Below, in pieces: positions 11,962 through 15,105 of a stretch of DNA of 64,000 bases; the stretch's first letter is position 1, and the number at the start of each line of letters is the position of its first letter. Origin of the DNA: Novosphingobium sp. RL4 (lineage in GTDB: Bacteria > Pseudomonadota > Alphaproteobacteria > Sphingomonadales > Sphingomonadaceae); the NCBI RefSeq assembly GCF_035658495.1, contig NZ_CP141944.1, forward strand, positions 1,390,001-1,454,000, written 5' to 3'. The position numbers and the translations under genes were made by a program. The notes under the pieces are model-generated. The model worked only from the letters and a program-made list of their open reading frames with translations. It made no database searches and was not told the DNA's origin.

Positions 11962-12711
11962 ATGCCCGGAGAAATTCTTGATAATCAGGGGCGCGGCGAA
12001 GCGTCCTGGAACTGGCCCTCCATCCATGGCGAGGGTCGCAAGTTCGGCGCCATCGCCGCAGCTATCGCGCTGTTCGGATGGATCGTTTTCGGTCCGTGGG
12101 TGGGATGGCCGCTGGCGGTCCTGACGCTGTGCGTGCTGGCCTTCTTCCGCGATCCCGTCCGCGTTACGCCGCAGGATGATCGCTATATCGTCGCTCCGGC
12201 CGACGGCCTGGTCACGCTCATCGGCAAGGTATCGCCGCCCCGTGAGCTGACGGTGGAGGATGGCAGCGGTTCTGAGCCGATGTCGACCGAACCGGTCACC
12301 CGCATCTCGATCTTCATGAGCGTGTTCGACGTTCACATCAATCGCACGCCCATTGGCGGCACGGTGCGCCGGGTGATCTACATTCCCGGCCGGTTCGTGA
12401 ACGCCGATCTCGACAAGGCGAGTGAAGAAAACGAGCGCCAGCACATCCTGGTGGAGCGCGGCGACGGGCTTCGCATCTGCTTCACGCAGATTGCCGGTCT
12501 GGTTGCGCGCCGCATCGTTCCCTTCGTGAAGCCGGGCGACATGCTTGCCGCCGGTCAGCGCATGGGCCTGATCCGTTTCGGTAGCCGTGTGGATGTCTAT
12601 CTTCCCGCTGGAACCGAGCCCAAGGTGCTCATGGGGCAGAAGATCGTGGCCGGCGAAACGATTCTCGCCGAACTCGGCTCCGCGCCCGTGATCGAGGGTA
12701 TCGCCCAGTGA
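11962..12711 (+). CDS. psd: phosphatidylserine decarboxylase proenzyme
   Basis: 249 residues. Converts phosphatidylserine to phosphatidylethanolamine at the inner membrane. A hydrophobic N-terminal hairpin (residues about 27-62) precedes the catalytic domain with [20 protein letters not shown] (catalytic His) and the self-cleavage site RFGSRVD (Gly207-Ser208), where Ser becomes the pyruvoyl group. It is the short, class-II/PSD-A-like form common in alphaproteobacteria. ATG 11962 is preferred over 11956 because AGAGGA sits five bases upstream. The stop overlaps pssA, forming a phospholipid operon. Confidence 0.94.
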
Positions 12712-13532
12712 ACGATGGGCCTGCGATCGATGAAGCCGGGATCGACGAGACCGGCGATTTCGACGCCGCAGGCCCGCGTGCGCGCGGCCGGATGGCGGCC
12801 GCCGGGCTTCCGATGCGCGTCTTCGTGCCCAACGCCATCACCGCTGCCGCGCTTTGCTCGGGATTGACCGGCATTCGCTTTGCCATCGGCGGCGACTACG
12901 AGCGAGCGGTTCAGGCCATCATCCTTGCCGGCCTGCTTGACGGCATAGACGGCCGCGCGGCGCGCCTGCTCAAGGCCCAGACCCGCTTCGGTGCCGAACT
13001 GGATAGTCTGGCGGATTCGATCTCGTTCGGCGTTGCGCCGGCGTTGATCGTCTATCTCTGGACCCTGCACCAGCTTCCCAGCCTTGGCTGGATCGCGGCG
13101 CTGGCGTTTGCGATCTGCTGCGTGTTGCGGCTCGCACGTTTCAATTCCCGGCTTGACGAGCAGGACCAGCCTCACAAGCAGGCAGGTTTCCTGACCGGTG
13201 TTCCCGCGCCGCTGGGCGCCGGGCTCGCGTTCCTGCCGATGTACTTGTGGATCGCCAGCGGAATTTCCGAATTCGCCAATCCCGTCGCGGTGAGCGTGTG
13301 GATGGTGCTGGTCGCTTTCCTGATGATTTCCAGCCTGCCTACGCTCAGTTGGGCAAAGATGCGGCCTCCGCCCAGTCTGCGTCTTGGCGTTCTCGCGCTG
13401 GTCGGCCTGACAGTGGCCGCGCTGCTGACCGAGCCCTGGTTCACGCTGGCCGTGATCACCATCGCCTATATCCTGCTGATTCCCGTAGGAATCGCCAGCT
13501 ACTCGAAGGTCAGGCGGCGAGTTCCCCGGTAG
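12708..13532 (+). CDS. pssA: CDP-diacylglycerol--serine O-phosphatidyltransferase
   Basis: 274-residue membrane enzyme making phosphatidylserine from CDP-diacylglycerol and serine, the substrate for the psd product upstream. The CDP-alcohol phosphotransferase signature is complete: DGRAAR, eight residues, G, three, D, three, D (about residues 84-106). About seven further hydrophobic segments follow. The start is a GTG that overlaps the psd stop (GTGA), giving an N-terminal acidic leader. The 3' end overlaps the convergent small gene by 23 bases. Confidence 0.95.
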
Positions 13533-13809
13533 TCCATTCGCCTTCCGCGCGCTCCGTGGAGGGCCATTCCAAACCCGGCGTCCACTGGGTACGGCGGATG
13601 CGGGTCATGCGGTCCTTCCTGAGGATTGCGAGCGTGGGCAGGGGCACCCGCTCCACCATCTTCCATTCCAGCATCACCGTTTCGGGGCATTGGCGCAGTG
13701 CCGTGCGCAGCCCGCGAACCGTATCGGCATGGCGAAGCCAGTTCGACCAGATGACGTGGGCGGAAACCAGCGCGGCTACAACGAAGAGACAGGCGGCAAA
13801 TGCAGTCAT
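13510..13809 (-). CDS. small single-pass membrane protein, probably SOS-induced
   Basis: 99 residues. One N-terminal transmembrane segment (MTAFAACLFVVAALVSAHVIW, residues about 2-22) is followed by a basic cytoplasmic tail with VRGLRTALRQCPE and MLEWKMVERVPLP, ending Glu/Thr-rich. No known family is recognised. The ATG at 13809 starts directly at the membrane segment; frames reaching 13890 run into the operator. Upstream lie two exact LexA boxes (13881-13895, 13909-13923) and a TTGACA on this strand at 13936-13931, so the gene should be DNA-damage-inducible. It overlaps the pssA end by 23 bases. It distantly resembles the product of 14511-14789. Confidence 0.7.
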   Translation of the reverse strand: MTAFAACLFVVAALVSAHVIWSNWLRHADTVRGLRTALRQCPETVMLEWKMVERVPLPTLAILRKDRMTRIRRTQWTPGLEWPSTERAEGEWTTGELAA

Positions 13810-13880
13810 GATCGTTCCTTTCGAACCATCGTCCACATTCTCTGCCCAGCCTGTGGAGAGCTTGTGGAAAACCGAGAATC

Positions 13881-13895
13881 GTTCTATCAATGTTC
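13881..13895. promoter_or_regulatory. LexA box (distal)
   Basis: GTTCTATCAATGTTC, an exact match to the alphaproteobacterial SOS operator GTTC-N7-GTTC. It lies 71 bases upstream of the small minus-strand gene. Confidence 0.8.
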
Positions 13896-13908
13896 CTGTG
13901 ATGACGTT

Positions 13909-13923
13909 GTTCTCAATTTGTTC
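13909..13923. promoter_or_regulatory. LexA box (proximal)
   Basis: GTTCTCAATTTGTTC, a second exact GTTC-N7-GTTC operator, centred 28 bp from the first. It lies directly beside a minus-strand TTGACA (13931-13936), so LexA would cover the promoter core, and 78 bases before the YbjN-like gene start. Confidence 0.82.
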
Positions 13924-14001
13924 TCATGCTGTCAAGCGTAAAGGCATGACCTGCGAGGAGGCTTCTGCCCAGTGCTTGGCTCGGTTCCCGAAAGTCGCCG
14001 C

Positions 14002-14472
14002 ATGAGCGAGGAAACCCGCGTCAGCCTTGGCGAACTCGAAGGATTGCGCGAATGGTGCGCGGCCAACCAGTTCGAGATCGAGATCATCGACGACAGCGAA
14101 CTGGTGCTTAACGATCAGGAAGCGGGAAGCGTCTGGTCGGTGTTCTGCGTGGATGGCTGGATCCAGGTGAAAGGGCTGGTGCTGGACGATGTCGAACCGG
14201 GGCCCGCGCTATGCCTGACTCTGGCAAGGCTGCACGACCGCCTGCTGGGGTGCCGTTTCTCGGTGGATTCGCAGCATGGGCTTGTCATCATCGTTGACCT
14301 GATGCCGTCCTGCCGTTCTTCGGCGGCGATTGCGGAGGCGGTGATGCAGATGCAGGCGATCATCGATCATACGAGCCCGCTGCTGGATGAGGTGATCGAA
14401 ACCGAAGTGGCTGCGGATGATCGCACGATCGATCAGGCATTCGGGCTGGAAGGTTCGCGGCGACTGCACTGA
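14002..14472 (+). CDS. YbjN-domain-like protein, possibly SOS-controlled
   Basis: 156 residues, soluble, acidic. The pattern LREWCAANQFEIEIIDDSELVLND, followed by a WxVxCVDGWIQVKG strand and a long amphipathic helix (AIAEAVMQMQAIIDHTSPLLDEVIE), resembles the YbjN / type-III-chaperone-like fold; this assignment is tentative. ATG 14002 starts the conserved part; a GTG at 13972 with GAGGAGG upstream would add ten residues. It diverges from the small membrane protein across the two LexA boxes. Its biological role is unknown. Confidence 0.65.
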   Translation: MSEETRVSLGELEGLREWCAANQFEIEIIDDSELVLNDQEAGSVWSVFCVDGWIQVKGLVLDDVEPGPALCLTLARLHDRLLGCRFSVDSQHGLVIIVDLMPSCRSSAAIAEAVMQMQAIIDHTSPLLDEVIETEVAADDRTIDQAFGLEGSRRLH

Positions 14473-14510: not shown

Positions 14511-14789
14511 TTATGCTGCGGTGCGTTCTCGCACCGGGCGCTGCGGATGGTGCGGTGCCGGTTTGGAGCGGATCGGGCGCCGGTTGCGGCGAACAGCGCG
14601 GGCGGTGCTGTCATGCGTGGTGGAGCGGCGCTCGAACGTGGACCATTCGATGTCGCCGGATGCGGCTGCGATGTGGGAAGCCCGATGAAGGGCACGGATC
14701 GCGGGGAGGGTGCTGCGATAGGTGCCCCAGATCGCCCTGATCGCAACGCAGGCGCCGATCGCGAATAGGATGGGTGGAAGGAGGCTCAT
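14511..14789 (-). CDS. small single-pass membrane protein, distant relative of 13510-13809
   Basis: 92 residues from ATG 14789 (AGGA upstream). An N-terminal transmembrane segment (MSLLPPILFAIGACVAIRAIW) is followed by AIRALHRASHIA, a DIEW motif and a very Arg-rich tail. The order TM - IW - (I/V)RxLxxA - EW matches the protein at 13510-13809, suggesting divergent paralogues. It has no LexA box in its upstream 120 bases. Function unknown. Confidence 0.6.
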   Translation of the reverse strand: MSLLPPILFAIGACVAIRAIWGTYRSTLPAIRALHRASHIAAASGDIEWSTFERRSTTHDSTARAVRRNRRPIRSKPAPHHPQRPVRERTAA

Positions 14790-15105
14790 TGCATGTGTCC
14801 TGCTTCGCGCCCTGCCCCCTGGGCGCATTGAACGAAAGTCCCCGGCTCTTCTCCTGCGAAAGCGGAAGCCTCTGCCTTTCCGCGTCAGTGGATATAACAG
14901 GGATTACCCTGTGGAAAAACGGTGGAAGGCGTTTGGTTTCCGCCAGTTGCATCGGAAGCGGAGGTGTCTGCGACGAGATGCCTTTGCGGAACGGCGGAAC
15001 GCGATCGAATTGAGGCTGGATTTTCTCCGGCAACGGCGCTAAGGGCGGCCCCGCTCGAGGGACGATACCGAATTCGCGGTATCTGGCGAATCGGGCAATC
15101 CACAT

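Follow-up and report, generated by a model that had tools for sequence, protein, structure and literature searches.

Small membrane proteins are described among the SOS division inhibitors, with SidA and SosA as examples (PMC4211646, PMC6851548), and DidA is reported to be induced by DNA damage, to stop division and to bind FtsN (PMC4211646). In the alphaproteobacteria, the LexA motif is given as GTTC-N7-GTTC (PMC3323433). We analysed a window of 64 kb, the whole stretch of Novosphingobium DNA under study, for which the original prediction had claimed two exact boxes of this form, 28 bp apart, flanked by a 99-residue protein on the minus strand and a YbjN-like protein on the plus strand. Both boxes were located, with their starts 28 bp apart and a gap of 13 bp between them, and both proteins correspond to open frames. 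The locus is laid out as follows.

12708-13532, plus strand: pssA (CDP-diacylglycerol-serine O-phosphatidyltransferase), matching NCBIfam TIGR00473 exactly at the cut-off
13510-13809, minus strand: P0001, small single-pass membrane protein of 99 aa, an open frame with C-terminus ...GELAA
13881-13895, plus strand: LexA operator 1, GTTCTATCAATGTTC, an exact GTTC-N7-GTTC, proximal to the membrane gene
13909-13923, plus strand: LexA operator 2, GTTCTCAATTTGTTC, an exact GTTC-N7-GTTC, distal, between the -35 element and the inferred -10
14002-14472, plus strand: P0002, YbjN-like protein of 156 aa, an open frame with an alternative start GTG at 13972
14511-14789, minus strand: P0003, second small membrane protein and paralogue of P0001, found with the P0001 profile, C-terminus ...RTAA
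15196-15951, plus strand: rpsB (30S ribosomal protein S2), matching NCBIfam TIGR01011 and PF00318

Upstream in the window lie psd and pssA, and rpsB-tsf is also present.

Single boxes are not rare, and a lone box is thus little proof of regulation. The window holds four exact boxes against 1.93 expected, with four or more in 12 of 100 shuffles; genome-wide, exact GTTC-N7-GTTC occurs 191 times against 85 for the reversed control pattern, and the stricter GTTC-N6-TGTTC 35 times against 10 for its control. Many of the single matches in the genome may be due to chance, while the present locus stands above chance because its boxes are both paired and conserved. We inspected 22 box sites of the genome and scanned 10 neighbouring proteins against protein families, and found that exact boxes precede lexA, recA, uvrA, mmcB, an SRAP gene, the gene of a UvrD/PcrA-type helicase and two ImuA-like genes. 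LexA (TIGR00498) and RecA (TIGR02012) scored above their curated cut-offs, and the SRAP and MmcB-like proteins passed those of Pfam; UvrA and the PcrA/UvrD-type helicase gave strong matches that nevertheless fell below the cut-offs because the proteins were truncated by the ends of the loci, and the two ImuA-like proteins gave weak matches below the cut-off. The last two of the 10 scanned neighbours were a radical SAM protein of the PA0069 type and a peptidase of the S24 type, and no certain SOS gene was recognised beside those of the 22 sites whose neighbours were left unscanned. Since they agree with the published motif and have the same form as those before canonical SOS genes, the boxes of the locus are, in form, LexA operators of this Novosphingobium genome.

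Elsewhere in the same genome, another predicted membrane protein of 102 aa (L008, 1510-1818), which starts MNQKDMLAGLL and has its hydrophobic segment at the C-terminal side, has its start codon within an exact LexA-type box, and is a second candidate SOS membrane gene. An exact box also stands before each of two genes lying 0.7 kb apart (L033, L034), one encoding the PA0069-type radical SAM protein and the other a shorter frame with a start that, judged by eye, is similar.

A minus-strand TTGACA had been predicted to abut the proximal box. The hexamer does exist on that strand; its placement had to be corrected, as it sits 6 bp from the distal box 2. The signals assigned to the membrane gene are the following.

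13930-13935, minus strand: -35 element TTGACA, from its sequence and its conserved spacing to box 2
13907-13912, minus strand: -10 hexamer GAACAA, uncertain, inferred by spacing
13816-13820, minus strand: Shine-Dalgarno-like AAGGA of P0001, from its sequence

In all 30 top genus loci, TTGAC begins 11-12 bp ahead of the distal box on the strand of the membrane gene, and among the loci of the rpsB survey (below) that have an exact box, TTGA stands 10-12 bp ahead of at least one box in 30 of 39, and in 24 of 39 this holds for the first box. A consensus scan returned no full sigma-70 promoter, the -10 hexamer being unrecognisable, and the leader alignment has AAAGGA as the majority form before the ATG. 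Because the distance from TTGAC to the box is fixed, LexA bound to the distal box would sit over the spacer and the -10 region, and hence over the core promoter, of the membrane gene.

Used as a single query, P0001 found matches in only 4 of the 296 genomes searched across the order, its own included. A match outside the family (L058, E 7.7e-4) was rejected as probably spurious, as it falls inside an open frame of 277 aa at a locus that has no exact box. A profile of 12 sequences found matches in 53 of 119 genus genomes; the other 66 had none and were left out, so that the 60 genus loci examined all come from the 53 matched genomes. These loci were assessed by a rule that calls for an exact box and, no more than 134 bp after it, a frame of 45-130 aa with an N-terminal hydrophobic helix. 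Such a unit was present in 58 of the 60 loci, equal to 52 of the 53 genomes. In the 53rd genome (L201) the membrane frame begins 137 bp from the box, 3 bp outside the rule, and the other locus (L210), which has no box, is a weak second match in a genome already counted. In 30 of 30 cases the best genus loci carry exact boxes, two or three in number, located 63-114 bp upstream of the ATG, and at the position of operator 1 the box is kept in all 30, mostly as GTTCTANNAATGTTC. The strict paired-box pattern had hits in only 5 of the 396 genomes searched in the order, which marks the exact pair as belonging to the genus; outside it, one to three boxes occur at variable spacing.

For the wider Sphingomonadaceae, rpsB was chosen as the landmark because the membrane protein evolves too fast for similarity searches, and orthology across genera was accordingly judged by gene place, orientation and type of protein, not by sequence similarity. 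The gene was found in 107 of 109 genomes of the order, and 76 rpsB loci were taken, 47 from other members of the family, including two from the same genus, and 29 out of 59 from other families; one of the 47 was too short, leaving 46 usable family loci. In 34 of the 46, an exact box occurs no farther than 300 bp from rpsB, against none of the 29 from other families. Within the family, 49 boxes were counted in 13,800 bp near rpsB against 10 in 190,855 bp farther upstream, and several of these 10 belong to displaced operator-gene units. The rule requiring an operator and a membrane frame was passed by 38 of the 46 loci, in five of which (L118, L124, L151, L155, L156) the unit is farther from rpsB. 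The eight failing loci comprise two with a one-mismatch box before a membrane frame (L123, L159), one with a box and no membrane frame (L134), and five in which no box was found beside a membrane frame (L119, L121, L125, L130, L138). In another family of the order (f5; L145, L146, L170, L176, L184), near-boxes with one mismatch 370-400 bp from rpsB were rejected because no membrane-type frame follows them and their flanks look like conserved coding sequence.

At one locus of another genus of the same family (L124) the membrane gene is duplicated in tandem, and only the copy farther from rpsB has an exact box, an arrangement that echoes that of P0001 and P0003.

LexA control of the small membrane gene, as originally predicted, is thus strongly supported at the level of sequence, since the combination of box, -35 element and membrane gene is repeated over the family and the same box stands before SOS genes. 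Conservation of the boxes upstream of orthologues had been named as a test of this proposal, and the proportions above, 58/60 in the genus and 38/46 in the rest of the family, bear it out. Operator and membrane gene appear to extend over the whole family, an extension that is new as far as the literature was searched; titles and the openings of abstracts contained no published description of the membrane gene, and the SOS genes named in the consulted parts of a study of Sphingopyxis granuli (PMC6472365) do not include it.

The divergent pair as a whole fared differently. Similarity of P0002 to YbjN is weak, with Pfam TY-Chap1 matched at E 0.0057 and 16.7 bits, below the gathering threshold of 27. 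A YbjN match was obtained in 11 of 195 genus genomes, by a single-sequence query that could miss divergent copies, and YbjN is present at 8 of the 30 best box loci. In the 11 genus genomes with YbjN, that gene does have the paired boxes in front of it; however, no forward promoter towards YbjN is conserved in nine aligned loci, where only the minus-strand -35 is. On this distribution and the lack of a conserved forward promoter, the claim that LexA governs both genes was not upheld, and YbjN was rejected as an SOS partner; it is probably a lineage-specific bystander and not a LexA target. With a box and a membrane frame together at nearly all genus loci and YbjN at few, the membrane gene is, as judged from these loci, the constant partner of the boxes.

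The protein set comprises 89 different sequences of 52-104 aa (median 86), 38 from the family set and 51 from the genus. By the hydrophobicity rule, these are small proteins with one membrane helix, and the structural model of P0001 agrees. In that model, made by AlphaFold2 with 12 sequences, a single helix at residues 2-40 is confident and the tail is unreliable (mean pLDDT 68.5). Net charge beyond residue 22 is positive in 87 of 89 sequences, so that by the positive-inside rule the basic tail is predicted to be cytoplasmic. The P0001-type protein is thus predicted to consist of one N-terminal membrane helix and a basic, mostly disordered cytoplasmic tail. In the genus set, median dN/dS was 0.43 for 289 pairs compared along the entire frame; for the first 45 codons it was 0.37, with values below 1 in 328 of 329 pairs. 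With values this low, the frame most likely encodes a translated protein under purifying selection. No match to the family was found in Pfam, NCBIfam, PADLOC or PHROGs, and SulA (PF03846) matched neither P0001 nor anything else in the genome. At least 13 relatives occur among the 7996 database candidates scored; two of the 13 are named by their source, as hypothetical or 'Secreted protein'. The membrane protein escapes annotation because it evolves too fast for family models.

The sequences end in -AA in 86 of 89 small proteins against 8 of 185 long frames; in a control of other membrane-type frames, from which P0003-type paralogues had not been removed, 20 of 101 did so. The tmRNA tag of the genome is ANDNEALALAA. 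The 3' end of P0001, however, overlaps the convergent pssA by 23 bp (13510-13532), and an overlap with a long convergent frame was found for 85 of the 89 small genes, in one phase in 83 of the 85. Of 106 loci searched, 69 had an identifiable pssA tail; the end of the small gene faces a conserved basic motif of pssA, and the -AA ending may therefore be a by-product of that motif. The ending was consequently set aside as a clean degron signal, and only those copies that do not overlap pssA would speak independently for it. There are 13 of these, mostly relatives of one another (11 P0003-type genes and the two tandem copies of L124), with -AA in 8 of 13 and -[AV]A in 12 of 13, whereas among 208 long frames these endings were counted 9 and 13 times; in 7 of the 13, an opposite-strand frame of at least 100 aa spans the stop. 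A putative ClpXP degron at the ssrA-like C-terminus is considered likely.

The leader of the membrane gene and the region upstream of its paralogue share a further element.

13863-13871, minus strand: DnaA-box-like TTTTCCACA in the P0001 leader, matching TTWTCCACA; CTCTCCACA starts 11 bp further
14910-14918, minus strand: DnaA-box-like TTTTCCACA upstream of P0003, matching TTWTCCACA

The genus consensus leader carries TTTTCCACA-AG-CTGTCCACA, which resembles tandem DnaA boxes. Exact TTWTCCACA occurs in 23 of 30 genus leaders against nine times in 189,224 surrounding strand-bases; across the genome, 29 such sites were counted, compared with 13 matches to the reversed pattern, and the two in the window are those before P0001 and P0003. 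Outside the genus, an 8-base form was present in only 9 of 39 leaders. One leader sequence gave an RNA structure z-score of -1.31, and as the alignment yielded no consensus structure, a shared RNA fold does not explain the element. P0003, which adjoins rpsB, is matched by the P0001 profile at E 2.9e-7. No exact LexA box lies between the start and rpsB in any of the 11 P0003-type genes examined, 4 of which have TTTTCCACA in their leaders; the motif KP(I/V/A)THR(L/V) near the C-terminal end is found in 9 of the 11 and is absent from P0003 itself. Given that there is no box and that the region towards rpsB contains conserved blocks, P0003 is probably regulated otherwise than by LexA.

We favour, as rather probable, the reading in which the LexA-repressed membrane gene is the Sphingomonadaceae counterpart of an SOS division inhibitor, removed by ClpXP, with YbjN as a bystander. 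LexA on both boxes would repress a single gene, the one for the small membrane protein, whose core promoter it would occupy, and after DNA damage RecA-promoted cleavage of LexA would release that gene. The protein is predicted to insert as a single N-terminal helix with its basic tail in the cytoplasm, and would most likely halt septum synthesis, in the manner of SidA in Caulobacter, by attaching to proteins of the late divisome. Its -AA C-terminus, which matches the tmRNA tag, would probably direct removal by ClpXP once the damage is repaired, although evidence for this step is partly confounded. Against this reading, P0001 matches the family of no known division inhibitor. A role as a division checkpoint factor may reasonably be inferred. 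A speculative and rather doubtful extension would give this checkpoint three inputs, with LexA reporting damage, DnaA on TTTTCCACA-AG-CTGTCCACA reporting initiation and ClpXP serving recovery, and with the LexA-free paralogue acting in the undamaged cycle of some species. To our knowledge, little is known of division arrest after DNA damage in alphaproteobacteria outside Caulobacter, and the membrane gene provides one conserved, easily deleted candidate division brake for a family of environmental bacteria. Operator and gene place together reveal it, a route that should also uncover further regulated genes of short length.

Division is not a necessary target of membrane peptides induced by the SOS response, as TisB illustrates, and the main rival to the division inhibitor is a membrane-active peptide of this type, which would depolarise or disturb the membrane and slow growth or favour persistence with no target in the divisome. 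The operators, the small size, the one membrane helix and the strongly basic tail would all suit such a peptide, as would the very fast evolution that is expected if no precise partner is needed. However, proteins of 52-104 aa with a long hydrophilic tail are longer than TisB, which has 29 aa, and their leader has no conserved RNA structure, unlike the regulated leader of tisB; we consider this explanation unlikely. It appears quite improbable that the protein is an SOS-regulated envelope or phospholipid factor, modulating PssA/Psd or another envelope system and not division. That 85 of the 89 small genes overlap a long convergent frame, pssA where identified, and that psd and pssA lie upstream could be read in this way, but rpsB-tsf are neighbours too, overlapping convergent ends imply no joint function, and SOS control would seem to have no obvious link to serine phospholipids.

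Operators that serve both directions, such that the membrane protein and the YbjN-like protein act together after damage, would account for the divergent genes seen here, with 78 bp from box 2 to the YbjN ATG, and for the paired boxes of the 11 genus genomes having YbjN. Such a module is nonetheless very improbable, as 184 of 195 genus genomes (single-sequence query) and 22 of the 30 best loci gave no YbjN match, and the only conserved promoter element between operator and YbjN in the nine aligned loci is the minus-strand -35. The commonness of single boxes (four found in the window, 1.93 expected) could even suggest chance matches that carry no regulatory meaning, but the boxes keep to one conserved place over the family, are missing near rpsB in all 29 loci outside it and lie at a fixed distance from the -35, which leaves chance a negligible probability.

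Compared with known systems, the proposed division inhibitor would be at most a functional analogue of SulA, the SOS-induced division inhibitor of Escherichia coli, whose target is FtsZ (PMC4211646). SosA of Staphylococcus (PMC6851548) and YneA of Bacillus (PMC13396833) are described as SOS-induced and membrane-spanning; the C-terminus of SosA, however, is predicted to lie outside the cell and SosA is reported as a substrate of CtpA (PMC6851548), which acts on YneA too, whereas the tail of P0001 is predicted to be cytoplasmic with an ssrA-like end. DidA of Caulobacter crescentus, at 71 aa, resembles P0001 in its single predicted membrane helix, but is described as SOS-independent (DriD; PMC4211646), while the P0001 gene has LexA operators. 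SidA of the same species is, like P0001, an alphaproteobacterial, LexA-controlled, small inner-membrane protein (PMC4211646). It has 29 aa against 52-104 aa for the P0001 type, and the two are likened by description and not by sequence. The operator itself has the form given for the alphaproteobacterial LexA regulon (PMC3323433), which the P0001 locus has in common with lexA, recA and uvrA of this genome.
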